In this document: piece by piece, positions 53,158 to 63,592 of the stretch | How the letters are laid out: every line of letters begins with the position of its first letter | How positions within the stretch are numbered: the first letter of the stretch is position 1 | Assembly: GCF_016598615.1 (NCBI RefSeq) | Contig: NZ_CP066831.1 | Span: 6,634,001-6,698,000, forward strand | From: Streptomyces liliifuscus | GTDB lineage: Bacteria > Actinomycetota > Actinomycetes > Streptomycetales > Streptomycetaceae | Direction: 5' to 3' | DNA length: 64,000 nucleotides | Program-made: the position numbers and the translations under genes | Notes under the pieces: generated by a model | Database searches by the model: none | Told to the model about the DNA's origin: nothing | The model's input: only the letters and a program-made list of their open reading frames with translations

Positions 53158-53292
53158 CGCCCCCGGCGCGCCTCCGGTGACCTCCCGCCCGGTGCGGGGT
53201 GCCGCCGGGCGCAGTGGCGCCGGGCGAAGCGCCGCGCGGTGCCTTGTCGTGGTCCAACTTCCCGGTGGGCGGACGGCGTTGCCGTGAGTGTG

Positions 53293-53327
53293 GGCCCCGG
53301 ATGCGTTCTTTGGGCGCTTCCGGGGCC
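53293..53327 (+). terminator. Hairpin terminator after the DUF3039 gene
   Basis: A 9-bp GC stem (53293-53301 with 53319-53327), extended by 3 bp beyond a mismatch, and followed by TTTG. Confidence 0.7.
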
Positions 53328-53383
53328 TTTGCACTGCCCGTGTACGAGCCACTCGTTGCACGGAGTGCTTCGAGTGGTCACAG

Positions 53384-53399
53384 AGTGGTTGAGACCTCT
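53384..53399. promoter_or_regulatory. DasR-responsive-element-like site
   Basis: AGTGGTTGAGACCTCT matches the dre consensus A(C/G)TGGTCTAGACCA(C/G)T at 13 of 16 positions. It lies 97 bp before the binding-protein start. DasR controls GlcNAc and chitobiose genes in Streptomyces, which fits the GH20 enzyme in the operon. Confidence 0.5.
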
Positions 53400-53495
53400 T
53401 GTGGCCGTGTTCATGTACTCCATAGCCTCCGACGTGTTGTGCAGCGCAAAACCACCATTGCACGTGCTGCAACGCGCTCCCCCGGAGGACGCCTC

Positions 53496-54809
53496 GTGAA
53501 GCTCTCGAAACTCATCGCCCGAACGGCCGCCCCGATAGCGGCGCTCGTCGTCGCCGGGCTCACGGCCACCGCCTGCGCCCCCGAGTCCTCCGACAACTCC
53601 GGGGGCAAGGACGAGAAGAGCGGCACCCTGCGGGTGTGGCTCTTCCAGGAGGTCGACACCGCACCGAAGGAGAAGGTCGTCGACGGTGTCGTCGCCGCCT
53701 TCGAGAAGGCCCACAAGGGCACGAAGGTCGACGTCCAGTACATCCCCGTCGAGACCCGCGCCGAGAAGATCAAGGCCGCTTTCAACGACCCCAAGAGCGC
53801 GCCGGACATCATCGAGTACGGGAACACGGACACGGCCGGTTACGTCAAGGACGGCGGACTCGCCGACGTCACCAAGGAGTTCACGGACTGGAACGAGTCC
53901 AAGGACACCGACCCGACCGCCAAGCAGTCCGTCACGGTCGACGGCAAGATCTACGGCGCCCCCTACTTCGTCGGCGTCCGCGCCCTCTACTACCGCACGG
54001 ACGTGTTCGAGGAGCTGGGCCTCGAAGTACCCAAGACCCAGGCCGAGTTGATCAGCACCGCCAAGGCGATCCGACAGGCGAAGCCGGACCTGTACGGGCT
54101 CGCGGTCGGCGGCGCCTACACGTACGGCGCGATGCCGTTCATCTGGTCCAACGGCGGCGAGATCGCCGAGGGCAAGGGCGGCTCGTACGCCTCGACGATC
54201 GACGGCGCGGACGCCCAGAAGGGCATCAAGGCGTACACCTCGCTGTTCGGTGACGACAACTGTCCGGCCGCCAAGTGCGCGGGCATGGGCGGCAACGACA
54301 CCGTCACCGCGTTCGCCTCGGGCAAGGCGGGCATGGCGATCGGCGGCGACTTCAGCCACGCGGCGATCGAGGCCGGGAAGGTCAAGGGCAAGTACGCGGT
54401 CGTGCCGCTGCCCGGCGTGAAGTCCGGTGAGATCGCTCCCGCGTTCGCGGGCGGCAACAACCTCGGTGTGCTGAACAGCACCTCGCACCGCACGCTCGCC
54501 GTCGACCTGATGGAGCAGCTCGCCTCGAAGAAGTCGCAGGACAAGCTCTTCGACGCGATGGGCTTCCTGCCGACGTTCACGGACGTGCGCCAGGACGTCG
54601 CCAAGCGCGAGCCGTTCGTCGCGCCCTTCGTGAAGACCCTCGGCGCGGGCGCCAAGTTCGTCCCGGCCTCGCCGGCCTGGTCCCAGATCGACGCGTCCCT
54701 CGTACTGCCCACGATGTTCCAGGAGGTCGTCAGCGGGCGTAAGAGCGTGGACGCGGCCTCGAAGGACGCGGCGAAGAAGATGAACGCCGCGTTCAGCTCC
54801 GCGGGGTGA
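53496..54809 (+). CDS. ABC transporter sugar-binding lipoprotein (amino-sugar type)
   Basis: A 437-aa extracellular binding protein. The GTG at 53496 has GGAGG 7 nt upstream. The lipoprotein signal is VKLSKLIARTAAPIAALVVAGLTATACAPESS, with the cysteine near residue 28. The mature part begins SGTLRVWLFQEVDTAPKEKVVDGVVAAFEKAHKGTKVDVQYIP, a family 1 solute-binding fold. It heads an operon with two permeases and a GH20 hexosaminidase, so a GlcNAc oligomer such as chitobiose is the likely ligand. The stop overlaps the next start. Confidence 0.92.
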   Translation: MKLSKLIARTAAPIAALVVAGLTATACAPESSDNSGGKDEKSGTLRVWLFQEVDTAPKEKVVDGVVAAFEKAHKGTKVDVQYIPVETRAEKIKAAFNDPKSAPDIIEYGNTDTAGYVKDGGLADVTKEFTDWNESKDTDPTAKQSVTVDGKIYGAPYFVGVRALYYRTDVFEELGLEVPKTQAELISTAKAIRQAKPDLYGLAVGGAYTYGAMPFIWSNGGEIAEGKGGSYASTIDGADAQKGIKAYTSLFGDDNCPAAKCAGMGGNDTVTAFASGKAGMAIGGDFSHAAIEAGKVKGKYAVVPLPGVKSGEIAPAFAGGNNLGVLNSTSHRTLAVDLMEQLASKKSQDKLFDAMGFLPTFTDVRQDVAKREPFVAPFVKTLGAGAKFVPASPAWSQIDASLVLPTMFQEVVSGRKSVDAASKDAAKKMNAAFSSAG

Positions 54810-55894
54810 GCCGGATGACGAACCGTCCGCTGCCGGGCCCGTCCGCCCAATCGCCCTCGCGCGAGGACGGGCCGGACGGGGCGGAGCCCGGGGCCGCGGC
54901 CTTGCCCGCGGCCCGTCGGGGCGCGGGGTCAGGTCCGGCGAAGGGTGCCTCGCCCGCACCCGTGACCGCGGCGGCCCGCCCGGGCCGCCGCGGCGGCGGG
55001 GGCCGCAGGTCCCCGCTCGCGCGCGGCGGATGGACTCCCTGGCTCTACCTCGCCCCCGCGCTCGTCGTCATCGGCGGGCTGCTCGTCTACCCCGTCTACC
55101 AGCTCGGGCTGATCTCGTTCCTGGAGTACACACAGGCACAGGTCAGCGGCGGGGAGCCGGCGACCTTCCAGGGGTTCGGGAACTACACGACGCTCTTCGG
55201 GGACCCGCAGTTCTGGCAGGTCCTGCTGGCCACCGTGCTGTTCGCCGGCGCGTGTGTGGTGTCGACGCTCGCGGTGGGCTGCGCGCTCGCCGTCCTCCTG
55301 ACACGTGTCCGTGCCGTGCCGCGGCTCGCGCTGATGCTGGCCGCGCTCGGCGCGTGGGCGACACCCGCGGTGACCGGGTCGACGGTGTGGCTGCTCCTCT
55401 TCGACCCCGACTTCGGTCCGGTCAACCGGATCCTCGGGCTCGGCGACCACTCCTGGACGTACGGCCGCTACAGCGCCTTCGCCCTCGTCCTGCTCGAAGT
55501 GGTCTGGTGCTCCTTCCCGTTCGTGATGGTCACGGTGTACGCGGGCATCCGCGCCGTACCGGCCGAAGTGCTGGAGGCCGCGTCCCTGGACGGCGCCTCC
55601 CAGTGGCGGATCTGGCGCTCGGTGCTCGCCCCGATGCTCCGGCCGATCCTCGTGGTCGTCACCATCCAGTCGGTCATCTGGGACTTCAAGGTCTTCACGC
55701 AGATCTACGTCATGACGGGCGGCGGCGGCATCGCAGGCCAGAACCTCGTACTGAACGTGTACGCCTACCAGAAGGCCTTCGCGTCCTCCCAGTACAGCCT
55801 CGGCTCGGCGATCGGAGTGGTGATGCTGCTGATTCTGCTCGCCGTCACGCTCGTATATCTGAGGCTGATCAGAAGGCAGGGGGAGGAGCTGTGA
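54806..55894 (+). CDS. ABC sugar transporter permease (MalF type)
   Basis: A 362-aa permease. GTG 54806 forms GTGA with the preceding stop; ATG 54815 is an alternative start. A 70-residue Pro/Gly/Arg-rich cytoplasmic tail precedes helix 1 (WLYLAPALVVIGGLLVYPVYQLGL). The EAA motif is VLEAASLDGASQWRIWRSVLAP. No ATPase gene is present in the operon, so a shared ATPase such as MsiK is expected to power it. Confidence 0.92.
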   Translation: MSRMTNRPLPGPSAQSPSREDGPDGAEPGAAALPAARRGAGSGPAKGASPAPVTAAARPGRRGGGGRRSPLARGGWTPWLYLAPALVVIGGLLVYPVYQLGLISFLEYTQAQVSGGEPATFQGFGNYTTLFGDPQFWQVLLATVLFAGACVVSTLAVGCALAVLLTRVRAVPRLALMLAALGAWATPAVTGSTVWLLLFDPDFGPVNRILGLGDHSWTYGRYSAFALVLLEVVWCSFPFVMVTVYAGIRAVPAEVLEAASLDGASQWRIWRSVLAPMLRPILVVVTIQSVIWDFKVFTQIYVMTGGGGIAGQNLVLNVYAYQKAFASSQYSLGSAIGVVMLLILLAVTLVYLRLIRRQGEEL

Positions 55895-56775
55895 GTTCCG
55901 CAAGTCCCGTGAAAACAGAAGGCTTTGTACGTGATTTCGCACGCCGTTCCGTACAGCGGCCGTGGCGGCTGGCCGCCGAGGCGTCCGCACTGCTGATCGC
56001 GGCGGTCGTCGCATTCCCCCTCTACTGGATGGTGCTCAGCGCCTTCAAGCCCGCCGGGGAGATCGAGTCGACCGAGCCGCGGCCCTGGACGCTGGACCCG
56101 ACGGTCGATTCCTTCCGACGCGTCTTCGGGCAGCAGGAATTCGGCCGGTACTTCCTCAACAGCCTCGTCGTGGCGGTCACCGTGGTCGCCGTCTCGGCGC
56201 TCATCGCGTTTCTCGCGGCGACCGCCGTGACCCGATTCCGCTTCCGTTTCCGCACCACCCTGCTCATCATGTTCCTGATCGCGCAGATGGTGCCCGTCGA
56301 GGCCCTGACGATCCCCCTCTTCTTCCAGATGCGGGACCTCGGTCAGCTCAACACGCTGGGCGCGCTGATCCTGCCGCACATCGCCTTCTCGCTGCCCTTC
56401 GCGATCTGGATGCTGCGCGGCTTTGTGAAGGCCGTCCCGGAGGCGCTGGAGGAGGCCGCCTACATCGACGGGGCGAGCAGGACGCGGTTCCTGTGGCAGA
56501 TCCTTTTCCCGCTGGTCTTTCCCGGGCTCGTCGCCACCAGCGTGTTCTCGTTCATCTCCGCGTGGAACGACTTCCTCTTCGCCAAGTCCTTCATCATCAG
56601 CGACACTTCGCAGTCCACTCTGCCGATGGCCCTCCTTGTCTTCTACAAGCCCGACGACCCCGACTGGGGCGGTGTGATGGCCGCGTCCACGGTGATGACC
56701 ATTCCGGTACTGATCTTCTTCGTACTCGTACAGCGACGGCTGGTCTCCGGACTGGGCGGCGCGGTGAAGGACTGA
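55891..56775 (+). CDS. ABC sugar transporter permease (MalG type)
   Basis: A 294-aa permease whose GTG overlaps the preceding stop by 4 nt. It has six helices and the EAA motif ALEEAAYIDGASRTRFLWQILFP. Helix 1 is ALLIAAVVAFPLYWMVLSAFKP. The GH20 gene starts 3 bp after its stop, which indicates one transcription and translation unit. Confidence 0.93.
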   Translation: MSSASPVKTEGFVRDFARRSVQRPWRLAAEASALLIAAVVAFPLYWMVLSAFKPAGEIESTEPRPWTLDPTVDSFRRVFGQQEFGRYFLNSLVVAVTVVAVSALIAFLAATAVTRFRFRFRTTLLIMFLIAQMVPVEALTIPLFFQMRDLGQLNTLGALILPHIAFSLPFAIWMLRGFVKAVPEALEEAAYIDGASRTRFLWQILFPLVFPGLVATSVFSFISAWNDFLFAKSFIISDTSQSTLPMALLVFYKPDDPDWGGVMAASTVMTIPVLIFFVLVQRRLVSGLGGAVKD

Positions 56776-56778
56776 GAC

Positions 56779-58434
56779 ATGACCACCACGGAACTGATTC
56801 CCGGGCCGCGGACCACGTCGACCTGGGGCGACGGTGTCTTCCCGCTCGACGAGGAGACGACCCTCACGGCGGGGCCCGAGACCGACGGCACGGCACGCTG
56901 GCTGCGCGCGGTGCTCGTCGCCGCCACGGGGCTTCCCCTGCGCGAAGGCGAACCCGGGCCGCCCGGAGGCGCGGCGGAGAACTCCGTCGAACTGCGCCTC
57001 GACCCGCAACTGCCGCCCGAGGGCTACCGGATCACGGTCCGCGACCGGCGGGCCCTCGTCGCCGGAGGCGGCCCGGCCGGGGTGTTCTGGGGCGCCCAGA
57101 CGCTACGGCAACTGCTGGGCCCCGACGCCTTCCGGCGCGCCCCTCTGAGGCGCACCGGCTGGCAGTTGCCGGAAACCGAGATCCAGGACGCCCCGCGATT
57201 CGCCTGGCGCGGCCTCATGCTCGACGTCTCACGGCACTTCATGCCCAAGGACGGTGTCCTGCGCTATCTCGACCTGATGGCGGCGCACAAGCTGAACGTC
57301 TTCCACTTCCACCTCACCGACGACCAGGGCTGGCGTATCGAGATCAAGCGGTACCCGAAGCTCACGGAGACCGGATCGTGGCGGGCGCGCACCAAATTCG
57401 GCCATCGCGCCTCGCCCCTCTGGGAGGACAAGCCGCACGGGGGCTTCTACACCCAGGACGACATCCGCGAGATCGTCGCGTACGCCACCGAGCGGCATAT
57501 CGCCGTCGTCCCCGAAATCGACATCCCGGGGCACTCGCAGGCCGCCATCGCCGCATATCCGGAACTGGGCAACACCGACGTCATCGACACGACCTCCCTC
57601 TCCGTCTGGGACACCTGGGGCGTCTCGAAAAACGTACTCGCCCCCACTGACAACGTCCTTCGCTTCTACGAGGGCGTCTTCGAGGAAGTCCTCGGTCTGT
57701 TCCCCGCGGACGCGGTCGCCTTCTCGGAGTTCGTCCACGTCGGCGGCGACGAGTGCGCCAAGGACCAGTGGGAGGCGTCGCCGACCGCGAAGACGCGGAT
57801 CGTGGACCTCGGTCTCGCGGACGTGGACGAACTCCAGTCGTGGTTCATCCGGCACTTCGACAACTGGCTGGCCGCGCGCGGGCGCCGGCTGATCGGCTGG
57901 GACGAGATCCTGGAGGGCGGCCTCGCCCCGGGCGCCGCAGTGTCCTCGTGGCGCGGCTACCGGGGCGGCATCACCGCCGCGCGGGCGGGCCACGACGTCG
58001 TCATGTGCCCCGAGCAGCAGGTCTACTTGGACCACCGTCAGCACGACGGTCCCGACGAGCCGGTGCCGATCGGGTTCGTACGCACCCTTGAGGACGTCTA
58101 CCGCTTCGAGCCCGTTCCACCGGAGTTGACCTCCGATCAGGCGCGGCACGTCCTGGGCACCCAGGCCAACCTGTGGACCGAGGTCATGGAGGACCGCACA
58201 CGCGTCGACTACCAGGCGTTCCCCCGGCTCGCGGCCTTCGCCGAGGTCGCCTGGAGCGCACTGCCCGACCCCGCGGAGCGCGACTTCGCCGACTTCGAGC
58301 GGCGGATGGCCGCCCACTACGGGCGACTTGACGCCCTCGGGGTCTCCTACCGGCCCCCCGCCGGGCCGTTGCCGTGGCAGCAGCGTCCAGGAGTGCTCGG
58401 ACGCCCGATCGAGGGAGCGCCCCCGAACGTGTGA
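56779..58434 (+). CDS. GH20 beta-N-acetylhexosaminidase, cytoplasmic
   Basis: A 551-aa enzyme. An N-terminal GH20b domain (about 1-140) precedes the catalytic barrel, which starts at APRFAWRGLMLDVSRHFMPKDGVLRYLDLMAAHKLNVFHFHLTDDQGWRIEIKRYP. The catalytic Asp-Glu pair is D324-E325 in FVHVGGDECAK. Later motifs are LIGWDEILEGG and GTQANLWTE. No signal peptide is present, so it should cut chitobiose or other GlcNAc-ended sugars after import by the coupled transporter. Last gene of the operon. Confidence 0.94.
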   Translation: MTTTELIPGPRTTSTWGDGVFPLDEETTLTAGPETDGTARWLRAVLVAATGLPLREGEPGPPGGAAENSVELRLDPQLPPEGYRITVRDRRALVAGGGPAGVFWGAQTLRQLLGPDAFRRAPLRRTGWQLPETEIQDAPRFAWRGLMLDVSRHFMPKDGVLRYLDLMAAHKLNVFHFHLTDDQGWRIEIKRYPKLTETGSWRARTKFGHRASPLWEDKPHGGFYTQDDIREIVAYATERHIAVVPEIDIPGHSQAAIAAYPELGNTDVIDTTSLSVWDTWGVSKNVLAPTDNVLRFYEGVFEEVLGLFPADAVAFSEFVHVGGDECAKDQWEASPTAKTRIVDLGLADVDELQSWFIRHFDNWLAARGRRLIGWDEILEGGLAPGAAVSSWRGYRGGITAARAGHDVVMCPEQQVYLDHRQHDGPDEPVPIGFVRTLEDVYRFEPVPPELTSDQARHVLGTQANLWTEVMEDRTRVDYQAFPRLAAFAEVAWSALPDPAERDFADFERRMAAHYGRLDALGVSYRPPAGPLPWQQRPGVLGRPIEGAPPNV

Positions 58435-58711
58435 GGTGCCTCCCAAGGGGTGTCGTCCGAAGCCGTTGCCCTGGGACGGTGACCCTCAAGGAGAAAGGCC
58501 CCCAAGGGCCATCGAAGGCTGCCAATTCGCGCTGACGGGCGATGTGGTGCGAAAACGGACCATCCGCTGGTGGCGGTAGGAATGCCTCCTAGCGGACCCC
58601 CGCGTCGAGGGGCGGGGAAGATGTGCCAGAGTTGCCACGTCCGCCCTGTCAGCACGTACCGTACGGCAACACAGGTGGGACCAGGTGGGGCAGCGGGAAG
58701 GGGCAGCCGGT

Positions 58712-59605
58712 TTGACCACGCACGCACCGCAGGCGGCGCAGGCCGTGACGCTGCCCGCCTCGCTGGACGAGGCCGTGGCGGCTCTCGCAGCCATGCCCGC
58801 GGCCGTTCCCGTGGCCGGCGGCACCGACCTCATGGCCTCCGTCAACTCCGGGCAACTGCGGCCCGCCGCACTCGTCGGCCTCGGCCGGATCAGCGAGATC
58901 CGCGGCTGGCAGTACCAGGACGGCCACGCGCTCCTCGGCGCGGGCCTCACCCACGCCCGCATGGGACGCCCCGACTTCGCCGCACTCATCCCCGCCCTCG
59001 CGGCCGCCGCCAGAGCCGCGGGACCGCCGCAGATCCGCAACGCGGGCACCCTCGGCGGCAACATCGCCTCGGCGTCCCCCACGGGGGACGCGCTTCCCGT
59101 GCTCGCCGCACTGGAGGCGACGCTCATCATCGCGGGCCCCGGCGGCGCCCGCCGCGAGATCCCCGTCTCCCACCTGCTCGCGGGCATGGAGATGCTCCGC
59201 GGCGGCGAACTCATCGGGTACGTGCGCGTGCCGCTCCTGCACGCCCCGCAGGTCTTCCTGAAGGCGACCGGACGGACCGGGCCCGGGCGCGCCATCGCGT
59301 CCGTCGCGCTCGTCCTCGACCCCGCCAGGCGCGGAGTGCGGTGCGCGGTGGGCGCCATAGCGCCGATGCCGTTGCGGCCCCTGGACGCCGAGCAGTGGGT
59401 CGCCTCGCTGATCGACTGGGACAACAACCGCGCGATCGTCCCCGAGGCGCTGCACGCCTTCGGGGAGTACGTCGCCGCGGCCTGCATCCCGGACCCCGCG
59501 CCCGCCGAGGACGGCTCCGCCCAGCAACTGCCACCCGCCGTACTGCACCTGCGGCGCACCGTCGCCGCGCTGGCCCGACGAGCACTGGGGAGGGCACTTT
59601 CGTGA
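58712..59605 (+). CDS. Xanthine-dehydrogenase-type FAD-binding subunit
   Basis: A 297-aa subunit. The TTG at 58712 is chosen because AAGGGG lies 8 nt upstream; a GTG at 58685 would add nine residues. FAD-binding motifs are AVPVAGGTDLM (about 36-46) and RNAGTLGGNIASASPTGD (about 110-127). The C-terminal CO dehydrogenase flavoprotein domain follows (FLKATGRTGPGRAIASVAL). It passes electrons from the iron-sulfur subunit to FAD. Its stop overlaps the GTG of the 2Fe-2S gene. The substrate of the complex is not evident from sequence. Confidence 0.9.
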   Translation: MTTHAPQAAQAVTLPASLDEAVAALAAMPAAVPVAGGTDLMASVNSGQLRPAALVGLGRISEIRGWQYQDGHALLGAGLTHARMGRPDFAALIPALAAAARAAGPPQIRNAGTLGGNIASASPTGDALPVLAALEATLIIAGPGGARREIPVSHLLAGMEMLRGGELIGYVRVPLLHAPQVFLKATGRTGPGRAIASVALVLDPARRGVRCAVGAIAPMPLRPLDAEQWVASLIDWDNNRAIVPEALHAFGEYVAAACIPDPAPAEDGSAQQLPPAVLHLRRTVAALARRALGRALS

Positions 59606-61167
59606 CCGACGACCAGCACGGAGAGAGCGGCCCCCGGTCGGGCAGCCGCTGGGATCCGCTGCCCCAGGGCGACTACGACGACGGCGCCACGGCCTTCGTC
59701 AAGCTCCCCGAAGGGGGCATCGACGCACTCCTGGCGGACTCGCCGCTCGCCGCGCCCGGCCACGGCTACGTACCGCCGCCGATAGCGCCCTCGCCCGCCA
59801 CGGAGGACGGCGCCAATCAGGCCGCGCCCGGCTCCTGGGCCGCGCCGCCCGAGGGCGGACAGCCGCAGCCCGTGCAGTGGCCCGACTCCAACGCCCTGCC
59901 CGAGGAGCACCGGCAGGGCACCCAGGACGCTTTCGCGTACAACCCGGGGGCCACCGGCCAGTGGACCTTCGACGAGCCCGCACAGGGCGGCCAGGGCGGT
60001 CACGGGGACCAGGGCGCGCCCGGCCAGGACGTGACCGGACAGTGGTCCATTCCCGTCGCCGACGGTGATCTGCCCGACGAGTCCGGCGAGTTCACGACGT
60101 CGGCCCTGGTCGAGCAGTGGGGCGGCACGCCTCCGGCCACCCTGCCGGGCGGAGCGGCGGCGCCCTGGGCCAACGAGCCCTGGGCCCAGCAGCCGGCTCC
60201 CGAACAGCAGTCGCCCGCCGAGGAGGCCGCGGCCCACGCCGAGCACGGCGGCGTCGGGCCCAGCGCCGCGGAGATCGAGGCCGCCGAGATCATCGACGTC
60301 TCCGGAGAGCACGCCGACGAGATCGCCGTCTCCGTGGACCGCGAAGAATCGATGCGCGAAGGTACGATGCGCGACGAGCCGGGTGAGGCACCGGCCGGTC
60401 ACGGCTCCCCGGAACGGTCCGACGAACCGGCCTCCGAGCCCGGGGCGCACTCCCCGGAGGAGACCACCGAGTCACCTGTCGACGCCGCCGAGGGACCCGC
60501 GGCCGACGACACCCCGGGTACGCCCGCGCACAACGACCACCCCCTCGCCTCGTACGTCCTGCGGGTGAACGGCGTCGAACGGCCCGTGACGGACGCCTGG
60601 ATCGGCGAATCGCTGCTCTACGTACTGCGCGAGCGGCTCGGTCTCGCGGGCGCCAAGGACGGCTGCTCGCAGGGCGAGTGCGGGGCCTGCAACGTGCAGG
60701 TGGACGGCAGGCTCGTGGCGTCCTGCCTGGTGCCCGCCGTGACCGCCGCCGGGAGCGAGGTGCGCACCGTCGAGGGACTCGCCGCCGACGGACAGCCCTC
60801 CGACGTCCAGCGGGCGCTCGCCAAGTGCGGTGCCGTGCAGTGCGGATTCTGCGTCCCGGGCATGGCGATGACCGTGCACGACCTCCTGGAGGGCAACCCG
60901 GCGCCGACCGAACTGGAGACGCGCCAGGCCCTGTGCGGCAACCTCTGCCGCTGCTCCGGCTACCGCGGCGTCCTGAACGCCGTACGCGACGTCGTCGCCG
61001 AGCGGGAGGCCCACGCGTCCGGCGACAACGCCCCGGACGCCGCGCCCTCTGCGGATGCCCGTATCCCGCACCAGGCGGGCCCCGGCGCCGGAAGCGTCAA
61101 CCCGTCCGCGTTCGAGTCACCACAGCCGCACCAGCAGCCGTACGGCCAGGACGGAGGCCAGGCGTGA
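59602..61167 (+). CDS. 2Fe-2S subunit of a molybdenum hydroxylase, with long disordered N-terminal extension
   Basis: A 521-aa protein, against about 160-200 aa for usual family members. Residues 1-315 are acidic and rich in Gly, Pro, Gln, Ala and Glu with no hydrophobic core, and include repeated tryptophan-containing units such as GQWTFDEPAQGGQ and GQWSIPVADGD. The normal domain begins at SYVLRVNGVERPVTDAW (about 318). All eight cluster cysteines are present: CSQGECGAC, then SCLVP, and CGFCVPG with CGNLCRC. A short disordered tail ends the protein. Coupled on both sides by GTGA overlaps. Confidence 0.92.
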   Translation: MTDDQHGESGPRSGSRWDPLPQGDYDDGATAFVKLPEGGIDALLADSPLAAPGHGYVPPPIAPSPATEDGANQAAPGSWAAPPEGGQPQPVQWPDSNALPEEHRQGTQDAFAYNPGATGQWTFDEPAQGGQGGHGDQGAPGQDVTGQWSIPVADGDLPDESGEFTTSALVEQWGGTPPATLPGGAAAPWANEPWAQQPAPEQQSPAEEAAAHAEHGGVGPSAAEIEAAEIIDVSGEHADEIAVSVDREESMREGTMRDEPGEAPAGHGSPERSDEPASEPGAHSPEETTESPVDAAEGPAADDTPGTPAHNDHPLASYVLRVNGVERPVTDAWIGESLLYVLRERLGLAGAKDGCSQGECGACNVQVDGRLVASCLVPAVTAAGSEVRTVEGLAADGQPSDVQRALAKCGAVQCGFCVPGMAMTVHDLLEGNPAPTELETRQALCGNLCRCSGYRGVLNAVRDVVAEREAHASGDNAPDAAPSADARIPHQAGPGAGSVNPSAFESPQPHQQPYGQDGGQA

Positions 61168-63473
61168 GCAACGACACCGCCACCGCGACCACCGCGGAGC
61201 CCGGCACCGCCCCGGAGCCGCTGCCCCACGGCCTCGGCGTGTCCCTGCCGTCCGCGGAGGCCCGCGCCAAGACCGAGGGCACCTTCCCGTACGCGGCCGA
61301 CCTGTGGGCCGAGGGCCTCCTGTGGGCCGCCGTCCTCAGATCACCGCACCCGCACGCGCGCATCCTGTCCATCGACACCACCCACGCGCGCGAGATGCCC
61401 GGAGTACGGGCCGTCATCACCCACGAGGACGTGCCCGGCACCGCCCTGCACGGCCGCGGCCGGGCCGACCGCCCGGTGTTCGCCTCCGAGGTCGTACGCC
61501 ACCACGGGGAGCCCATCGCGGCCGTCGCCGCCGACCACCCCGACACCGCCCGCATGGCCGCGGCCGCCGTCATCGTCGAGTACGAGGCACTCGACCCGGT
61601 GACCGACCCGGAGCAGGCCTTCGAGGCCGAGCCCCTGCACCCCGACGGCAACCTGATCCGCCACATCCCGCTGCGCCACGGCGACCCGGACGCGGCCGGT
61701 GAGATCGTCGTCGAGGGCCTGTACCGCATCGGCCGCCAGGACCCGGCCCCGATCGGCGCGGAGGCCGGCCTCGCCGTGCCCCGCCCCGACGGCGGGGTCG
61801 AGCTCTACGTGGCGTCCACCGACCCGCACGCCGACCGCGACACGGCCGCCGCCTGCTACGGCCTGGAACCCGAGCGCGTGAAGGTCGTCGTCACGGGCGT
61901 GCCCGGCGCCACCGCCGACCGCGAGGACCAGAGCTTCCAGCTCGCCCTCGGACTGCTCGCCATGAAGACCGGATGTCCGGTCAAACTCACCGCGACACGC
62001 GAAGAGTCCTTCCTGGGCCACGCCCACCGCCATCCCACGCTCCTGCGCTACCGGCACCACGCCGACGCCGAGGGCAAGCTGGTCAAGGTCGAGGCGCAGA
62101 TCCTGCTCGACGCGGGCGCGTACGCCGACACGTCGTCCGAGGCCCTCGCAGCCGCCGTCTCCTTCGCCTGCGGCCCGTACGTCGTCCCGAACGCCTTCAT
62201 CGAGGGCTGGGCCGTACGCACCAACAACCCGCCCTCCGGACACGTACGCGGCGAGGGCGCCATGCAGGTGTGCGCCGCCTACGAGGCCCAGATGGACAAG
62301 CTGGCGAAGAAGCTGGGCGTCGACCCGGCCGAACTGCGCCTGAGCAACGCGATGGCCACGGGGGACGTGCTCCCCACCGGCCAGACCGTGACGTGCCCCG
62401 CCCCGGTCGCCGAACTGCTGCAGGCCGTCCAGGACTTCCCGCTGCCCGCCCTCCCGAAGGACACGCCCGAGGACGAGTGGCTGCTGCCCGGCGGACCCGA
62501 GGGCGCCGGCGAACCCGGTGCCGTACGGCGTGGCGTCGGCTACGCCCTGGGCATGGTCCACATGCTCGGCGCCGAGGGCGCCGACGAGGTCTCGACCGCC
62601 ACCGTGAAGGTCCACGACGGCATCGCCACCGTGCTCTGCGCGGCCGTGGAGACCGGCCAGGGCTTCACCACACTGGCCCGGCAGATCGTCCAGGAGACGC
62701 TCGGCATCGAAGAGGTGCACGTCGCCTCCGTGGACACCGATCAGCCCCCCGCCGGGCCCAGCTGCCGCGGCCGCCACACCTGGGTGTCCGGCGGCGCCGT
62801 CGAACGGGCCGCCAAGATGGTCCGTACGCAGCTGCTGCAGCCCCTGGCCCACAAGTTCGGGATGTCCACCGAGCTCCTCCAGATCACCGACGGCAAGATC
62901 ACCTCGTACGACGGTGTGCTGTCGACGACCGTCACGGAGGCGATGGACGGCAAGGAGCTGTGGGCCACCGCGCAGTGCCGCCCGCACCCCACCGAGCCGC
63001 TCGACGGCACCGGCCAGGGCGACGCCTTCGTGGGGCTCGCCTTCTGCGCGGTCCGCGCGGTCGTCGACGTCGACATCGAGCTGGGTTCGGTGCGGGTCGT
63101 GGAGATGGCGCTCGCCCAGGACGTGGGACGGGTGCTGAACCCCGCGCAGCTCGCCTCCCGGATCGAGGCCGGAGTCACCCAGGGCATCGGTGTCGCCCTC
63201 ACGGAGAACCTGCGCACCGCGCGCGGGCTGGTGCGCCACCCCGACCTCACGGGGTACTCGCTGCCGACCGCCCTCGACACCCCCGACATCCGCATCGTCA
63301 AGCTCGTCGAGGAGCGTGACGTGGTCGCGCCCTTCGGCGCGAAGGCCGTCAGCGCGGTGCCGGTGGTCACCTCCCCGGCCGCGGTCGCCTCCGCGGTACG
63401 GGCGGCCACGGGGCGTCCGGTGAACCGGCTGCCGATAAGGCCGCAGGCGGCCGTGGTGACGGCGACGCAGTGA
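61164..63473 (+). CDS. Molybdopterin-binding catalytic subunit of a xanthine-dehydrogenase-type hydroxylase
   Basis: A 769-aa subunit. The GTG at 61164 has GGAGG 6 nt upstream. The a/b hammerhead domain occupies about 20-140 (TFPYAADLWAEGLLWAAVLRSPHPHARI); molybdopterin-binding motifs follow, including VRGEGAMQVCAAYEAQMDKLAKKLGVDPAELR, ETGQGFTTLARQIV and GQGDAFVGLAFCAV. It ends in the usual APFGAKAVSAVPVVTSPAAVASAVRAATG. With the FAD and FeS subunits it forms a three-subunit oxidase or dehydrogenase for purines or related heterocycles. Exact substrate unknown. Confidence 0.92.
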   Translation: MSNDTATATTAEPGTAPEPLPHGLGVSLPSAEARAKTEGTFPYAADLWAEGLLWAAVLRSPHPHARILSIDTTHAREMPGVRAVITHEDVPGTALHGRGRADRPVFASEVVRHHGEPIAAVAADHPDTARMAAAAVIVEYEALDPVTDPEQAFEAEPLHPDGNLIRHIPLRHGDPDAAGEIVVEGLYRIGRQDPAPIGAEAGLAVPRPDGGVELYVASTDPHADRDTAAACYGLEPERVKVVVTGVPGATADREDQSFQLALGLLAMKTGCPVKLTATREESFLGHAHRHPTLLRYRHHADAEGKLVKVEAQILLDAGAYADTSSEALAAAVSFACGPYVVPNAFIEGWAVRTNNPPSGHVRGEGAMQVCAAYEAQMDKLAKKLGVDPAELRLSNAMATGDVLPTGQTVTCPAPVAELLQAVQDFPLPALPKDTPEDEWLLPGGPEGAGEPGAVRRGVGYALGMVHMLGAEGADEVSTATVKVHDGIATVLCAAVETGQGFTTLARQIVQETLGIEEVHVASVDTDQPPAGPSCRGRHTWVSGGAVERAAKMVRTQLLQPLAHKFGMSTELLQITDGKITSYDGVLSTTVTEAMDGKELWATAQCRPHPTEPLDGTGQGDAFVGLAFCAVRAVVDVDIELGSVRVVEMALAQDVGRVLNPAQLASRIEAGVTQGIGVALTENLRTARGLVRHPDLTGYSLPTALDTPDIRIVKLVEERDVVAPFGAKAVSAVPVVTSPAAVASAVRAATGRPVNRLPIRPQAAVVTATQ

Positions 63474-63592
63474 CCCCTCCCGAGCCGCCGCGCTACGAAC
63501 CGGGGCCGAGTGTCGGGAAACTGATGCTGTGGCTGCTGGTGTTCGTGCTGGCGGCGGTCGTGGTCGTCGCGGGCGGCGTGTACTTCGGTTGA
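63470..63592 (+). CDS. 40-aa single-pass membrane protein coupled to the Mo-hydroxylase
   Basis: This tiny gene starts at a GTG that overlaps the stop of the molybdenum subunit (GTGA). It encodes a Pro-rich 17-residue N-terminus (TPPEPPRYEPGPSVGK), one transmembrane helix (LMLWLLVFVLAAVVVVAGGVYF) and a stop. The coupling and clean helix argue that it is real. A membrane anchor or assembly partner for the hydroxylase is a possible role. Family unknown. Confidence 0.65.
   Translation: MTPPEPPRYEPGPSVGKLMLWLLVFVLAAVVVVAGGVYFG

Follow-up and report, generated by a model that had tools for sequence, protein, structure and literature searches.

An operon of Streptomyces liliifuscus appears to encode a retired hydroxylase. 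We consider it somewhat probable that an enzyme resembling xanthine dehydrogenase lost its chemistry once, and that it has been kept as an iron-sulfur (Fe-S) and FAD complex with a redox or scaffold role, with a long arm on the Fe-S subunit that would dock partners. The loss of the catalytic residue, the altered molybdenum (Mo)-binding loops, the Fe-S and FAD sites that remain and the motifs of the arm together suggest, as far as sequence goes, that an enzyme has become a device for docking or sensing which still carries redox centres.

Genes of this large-subunit kind are easily named xanthine dehydrogenase, and family searches would do just that. We take SCO2940 to be the Streptomyces coelicolor orthologue of the gene described here. 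In the accessible part of PMC3770449, SCO2940 is tabulated as ‘xanthine dehydrogenase, putative’. If the complex is catalytically dead, such a label would mislead metabolic models. The genus that produces most antibiotics would then also offer a tractable example of how an enzyme turns into a scaffold with a redox link: a pseudoenzyme with flavin and iron-sulfur sites, without a molybdenum site, and with a conserved arm of motifs.

The window is the whole stretch of DNA that was analysed, 64,000 nucleotides from a genome of 11.35 Mb. In the operon, the gene for the FAD subunit comes first, followed by the Fe-S subunit and then the Mo-type large subunit (Table 1). Pfam families on these subunits are PF00111, PF01799, PF00941, PF01315, PF02738 and PF20256.

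Table 1. Features of the operon, in positions of the window.
Feature	Position	Strand	Remarks
FAD-binding subunit (PF00941)	58685..59605	+	AGGTDLM and GTLGGN..P.GD motifs intact
[2Fe-2S] subunit gene, 521 aa, GTG start	59602..61167	+	4-base overlap with FAD gene
N-terminal arm, residues 1-315, acidic, low-complexity	59602..60546	+	
Arm block 1, residues 17-36, WDPLPQGDYDDGATAFVKLP	59650..59709	+	
Arm block 2, residues 47-59, SPLAAPGHGYVPP	59740..59778	+	
First TGQW block, residues 117-125	59950..59976	+	
Second TGQW block up to SGEF...EQW, residues 144-173	60031..60120	+	
Arm block PPATLPGGAAAPWA, residues 177-190	60130..60171	+	
Variable acidic linker, residues 191-315	60172..60546	+	dN/dS 0.78-0.80 over 191-313
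Fer2 and Fer2_2 enzyme domain, residues 318-465, eight cluster cysteines	60553..60996	+	
C-terminal tail with IPHQAGPGAG motif	60997..61164	+	
Molybdopterin-type large (Mo) subunit, 769 aa, apparently inactive	61164..63473	+	
TGVPGATAD in place of GG[AG]FG cofactor loop (Mo subunit)	61893..61919	+	
A731 codon, catalytic glutamate position (Mo subunit)	63354..63356	+	
40-aa membrane-span protein, optional operon member	63470..63592	+	4-base overlap with large-subunit stop

The catalytic position of the large subunit

Alignment with solved relatives puts an alanine (A731) at the position of the catalytic glutamate, with PFGAKAVSAVPV where the relatives have GE or SE. The residue is alanine in 85 out of 85 sequences of the clade, which consist of the window's own, 77 full-length ones from named Streptomyces, and 7 others. 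Outside the 77 stand L220, which is at a contig end, and L261, a Streptomyces record in which the large-subunit frame is broken. The original prediction had the arm serving a hydroxylase. Because the glutamate is absent in all 85, that premise is probably wrong. In aldehyde oxidases and xanthine oxidoreductases this glutamate is strictly conserved, according to the accessible part of the review PMC3509653. The review also states that mutation at the equivalent of human Glu1262 left the enzyme completely inactive, and it tabulates a change to alanine.

The GG[AG]FG cofactor loop has changed as well. Its first glycine is a proline in 85/85 clade sequences. Its phenylalanine has given way to another residue in at least about 96%, and its last glycine in about 95%. 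Both glutamate and loop are kept in 30/30 pucD-type controls from the phylum, in 5/5 outgroups (L279-L283) and in 7/7 paralogues from the same genome. The 30 controls are best matches and lean canonical, and three of them come from Streptomyces, including L312, the window's own paralogue; outgroup L284 gave no large-subunit match.

Of 198 positions that are invariant in 34 active-type rows, the clade has kept 139 and switched 44. Residues 218-221, 247-251, 360-364, 529-538, 665-666 and 728-731 hold 20 of these 44, and going by alignment, these six stretches presumably touch cofactor or substrate. The 34 rows exclude L315 and L316 as more distant, and count one gene twice (L270 and L312). Rooted on the active side, a tree of 25 rows places a single origin of the altered clade on a 0.47 branch, with support 100/100.

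The Mo subunit is likely catalytically dead, and we infer that it has lost cofactor binding. A rather unlikely alternative is a Mo enzyme with changed chemistry, which would still bind a pterin cofactor but catalyse a different reaction in which some other residue serves as the base. It draws on the 139 positions kept, which include RG at 362-363, on GQG at 498-500, present in most rows shown, and on strong purifying selection (dN/dS 0.10 over 36 pairs). There are also remnants of the loop, AFG in L286 and the last glycine in L278 and L266, which like RG and GQG count against the dead-enzyme reading. Changed chemistry would however have to accommodate alanine for glutamate in 85/85 sequences and the replacement of both TQW at 218-220 and the SASRQ stretch, next to the inactivation of xanthine oxidoreductase by mutation of this glutamate, as given in the accessible part of PMC3509653.

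The other sites look untouched. All eight cysteines, for two [2Fe-2S] clusters, are found in 129/129 distinct Fe-S subunits (136 before merging identical sequences). The FAD motifs AGGTDL and GGN..P.GD are there in the window's own subunit and in six aligned clade members, where L276 reads AGATDLM. With the Fe-S and FAD sites intact, the change looks selective for the Mo site.

Composition and selection of the arm

On the 521-residue Fe-S subunit, Pfam finds Fer2 at 334-370, Fer2_2 at 389-462, and nothing else. Since these matches lie within 334-462, some 315 residues are N-terminal of the Fe-S domain. The N-terminal half that was originally predicted is therefore real as a reading frame (521 aa at 59602-61167, domain from about 318). 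It is also acidic and of low complexity, as had been claimed: residues 1-315 have a net charge of -50, are 78% A, P, G, Q, E, D, S or T, and contain zero cysteines. The 56-residue tail at the other end of the subunit bears an IPHQ motif. AlphaFold gives the arm little structure, in a model that is of low confidence as a whole. Mean pLDDT is 54 for the Fe-S subunit (36 rows) and 52 for the Mo subunit (16 rows), and is low over the conserved domains too. Arm residues 171-190, with mean pLDDT of 68 and 81, are the sole hint from these low-confidence models.

Repeated GQW units had been noted in the arm. They are present and conserved, but they do not stand alone, being part of a longer ordered set: DxxATAFVxLP, PLAAPGxGYVPP, TGQW, TGQWSIPVA..DESGEF..QW and PATLPGGAxAPWA. 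The window's own arm holds VQW and EQW besides its two TGQW units. When this arm was shuffled 5,000 times, at least two TG.W appeared in 0.18% of cases and at least four QW in 0.08%. Conservation in relatives, which had been proposed as a check, is high: TG.[WFY] and [GATV][QEH]W each occur in 127 of the 129 distinct Fe-S subunits, [AST]T.F[VILF].[LF]P in 126, [SQT]GE[FYW] in 125, PL.APG in 121 and LPGG[AT] in 117. These patterns are loose, and the shuffle control covers TG.W and QW of the window's own arm. In 36 aligned rows, W17, T30, L35, P36, W148, P151, G162 and E163 are invariant.

The arm is almost surely translated, judging by the layout of the genes and by its blocks, whose evolution is about as slow as that of the enzyme core (dN/dS 0.13 against 0.11). 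A ribosome-site-like GGGGAGGG precedes the GTG start, which overlaps the FAD gene by 4 bases. A start at this same overlap is found in 80/81 loci (75 GTG, 5 ATG), which are 80 named Streptomyces and the window's own, with one locus lacking an Fe-S start. A second set of loci has it in 47 of the 48 where the FAD gene was found. The exception there is L038, with an unsure start, and L008, L047 and L052, where the FAD gene was not found, fall outside the 48. The counts took the in-frame start nearest the FAD stop, so they establish the presence of a start at that point rather than its use.

Taken over 38 independent pairs, dN/dS is lowest in the enzyme core, at 0.11. Residues 1-190 come to 0.36, the C-terminal tail to 0.46 and the linker to 0.80. 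Within the arm, strict blocks have 0.13 and the spacers between them 0.60, which supports the idea that the short motifs evolve like binding motifs; the low block value is partly expected, since conservation was the criterion for selecting blocks. They were selected on 47 genus-search sequences and dN/dS was computed on the named-relative loci, so that species overlap is possible. The named-relative loci are the best 80 out of 564 relatives; all 80 are Streptomyces, and the choice leans to close members and is not random.

A downstream start near residue 315 is disfavoured by the start overlap and the block dN/dS. More generally, the arm could be non-functional, either a neutral decoration or the product of a wrong gene start. 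Its linker is nearly free to evolve (dN/dS 0.78) and its length ranges from 193 to 586 residues among the 129 distinct subunits. Set against the shared start in 80/81 loci and the 0.13 of the strict blocks, we find this very improbable.

The arm might also be regulated by phosphorylation, an idea that can be combined with that of a retired enzyme. Its T-x-x-bulky units (TAFV, TGQW, SGEF) would then be sites for an actinobacterial Ser/Thr kinase or for an FHA-domain reader. T30 is invariant and T145 and S161 are nearly so in 36 rows, and each unit has its bulky residue at +3, in which we see a resemblance to PknB/GarA sites. In some relatives, however, the first TGQW unit has another residue in place of its T. 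In addition, the main text of the Streptomyces rimosus phosphoproteome (PMC9600765), in its accessible part, has no xanthine, 2Fe-2S or iron-sulfur. The accessible part of PMC4304846 contains no site motif. All in all, phosphorylation is quite unlikely to be what the arm is for.

Range of the arm and its neighbourhood

At E up to 0.01, a profile of residues 1-190 has a match in 260 out of 293 genomes from the order. Two of the 260 come from two other genera of the family, and all the rest belong to the same genus. One way for the original prediction to fail was for relatives to lack the extension, and within Streptomyces this is not so. There are 19 Streptomyces with no match or a weak one, and 13 of these have a close core. 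Wherever the upstream sequence is readable in such genomes, the arms are long and more divergent. The remaining 6 are five fragmented or incomplete assemblies, and one (G180) with a run of N in the gene. The counts on upstream sequence omit loci cut by an edge and loci without a located FAD stop; L171, L174 and L175 gave no core.

In two further genera the arm is 291 (L139) and 212 residues (L146) long, and its blocks are reduced. The arm with its motif blocks is thus found on the Fe-S subunit of Streptomyces, and in reduced form in two more genera. Three sister members from the family, L152-L154 (the genomes of L274-L276), have only 12-49 residues before the core, but C-terminal tails of 174-202 residues. 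Motifs such as DEYPVY and VLPHQGT recur in both L152 and L153. Long C-terminal tails are also seen in L016, which runs 143 residues beyond the core anchor and has QSFGGN/QSFNAD-like repeats, and in L020, with 145 residues. In the distant relatives L176-L178 the extension is absent.

The nearest active-type relative, L279, is from another family of the order and has an N-terminal extension of 466 residues without these blocks. This means that long low-complexity segments on the Fe-S subunit may predate the loss of catalysis, and that the blocks may be younger. Given the armless L274-L276 and the extension of L279, arm and catalysis loss are not strictly tied.

A hydrophobic frame of 25-90 aa was looked for from -30 to +60 bases around the large-subunit stop. 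It is found in 29/77 loci, 28 times at -4 and once at +21. The 40-aa membrane protein, which had been proposed as a target of the arm, is for this reason not supported as a general one. As a general partner it was rejected, with no such frame found in 48/77 loci.

This bears on the possibility that the arm is a localisation tag, taking the complex to a membrane, a condensate or a protein compartment. Like its family, the complex is probably dimeric, and a dimer with such an arm would present its motifs multivalently; the optional membrane-span gene follows in the 29 loci. But the frame was not found in the other 48, and searching the genome with the arm profile gave no second protein (E up to 1; 150/153 candidates scored), so the arm is not a shared tag. 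We regard localisation as unlikely. A tag shared with other proteins was also rejected after a search with the profile and with a GQW[ST/other WSN]IP DNA pattern, which found this gene only in the genome.

Upstream of the operon, 53199-58434 holds genes for a solute-binding protein, a permease and a GH20 hexosaminidase, and downstream from 63870 (L059:871-2055) there is a SUKH-4 immunity-type gene. Of the 71 loci with full flanks, 70 also contain the GH20 gene and 68 contain a member of the SUKH-4 family, which makes the operon's site look like a stable place on the chromosome.

Interpretation and comparison with known systems

For the retired enzyme, the course of events might be as follows. 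Hydroxylase chemistry would have been lost once, on the branch to the sampled Streptomycetaceae, and the complex would since have been retained in a non-hydroxylating role, redox or scaffold. FAD and two [2Fe-2S] clusters would still be bound and able to accept or pass electrons. The motifs of the arm, above all TGQWSIPVA..DESGEF..QW and DxxATAFVxLP, may be docking sites for one or several partner proteins, or may fold back onto the complex itself; the acidic linker would then be a flexible spacer. Folding back onto the former cofactor channel would be an alternative to partner docking.

A more specific version is less likely than not. In it, Streptomycetaceae would have made a xanthine dehydrogenase into a pseudo-hydroxylase conserved across the family, which uses FAD and [2Fe-2S] without Mo to sense redox state or to relay electrons as a hub. 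In Streptomyces and near genera, an arm of at least five ordered docking motifs on the Fe-S subunit would assemble partners by redox state.

Among the open PMC matches listed, there is no described case of a dead subunit in the xanthine oxidase family and nothing on the arm; in one set, with 15 of 114 papers listed, TGQW is in none of the 15.

The operon has the homologous Fe-S, FAD and Moco-binding subunits of the xanthine oxidase family (Mo hydroxylases). It lacks that family's catalytic glutamate and an unaltered GG[AG]FG cofactor loop. The PucC/PucD/PucE xanthine dehydrogenase (TIGR03199, TIGR03196, TIGR03198) likewise comes as three separate subunits, with the Fe-S cysteines and FAD motifs; compared to this type, the glutamate is gone here and the loop is altered. 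The best match of the large subunit is pucD (TIGR03196), at 662.1 bits and E 1e-198, below the cut-off of 783.65. The intact paralogue L270 (L312), at 764.3 bits, is also just under this cut-off, so the pucD score alone decides little.

Among solved structures, 4-hydroxybenzoyl-CoA reductase (1rm6) and aldehyde oxidoreductase (1sij, 1dgj) are of the same family, with E from 1e-66 to 1e-53. At the site of A731 these carry glutamate, and in place of VPGAT they read GGGFG or GGTFG. Solved single Fe-S subunits are about 160 aa long, versus 521 aa here.

The closest active-type protein within the genome is a paralogue resembling xanthine dehydrogenase (L270, the same as L312), at 571 bits to the Mo subunit. 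Unlike that subunit, it retains GE and GGAFG, so purine hydroxylation need not depend on the complex described here. In pseudoenzymes generally, the fold is conserved and a catalytic residue is lost, while purifying selection continues. The complex resembles them in this: its glutamate is lost, and purifying selection goes on.
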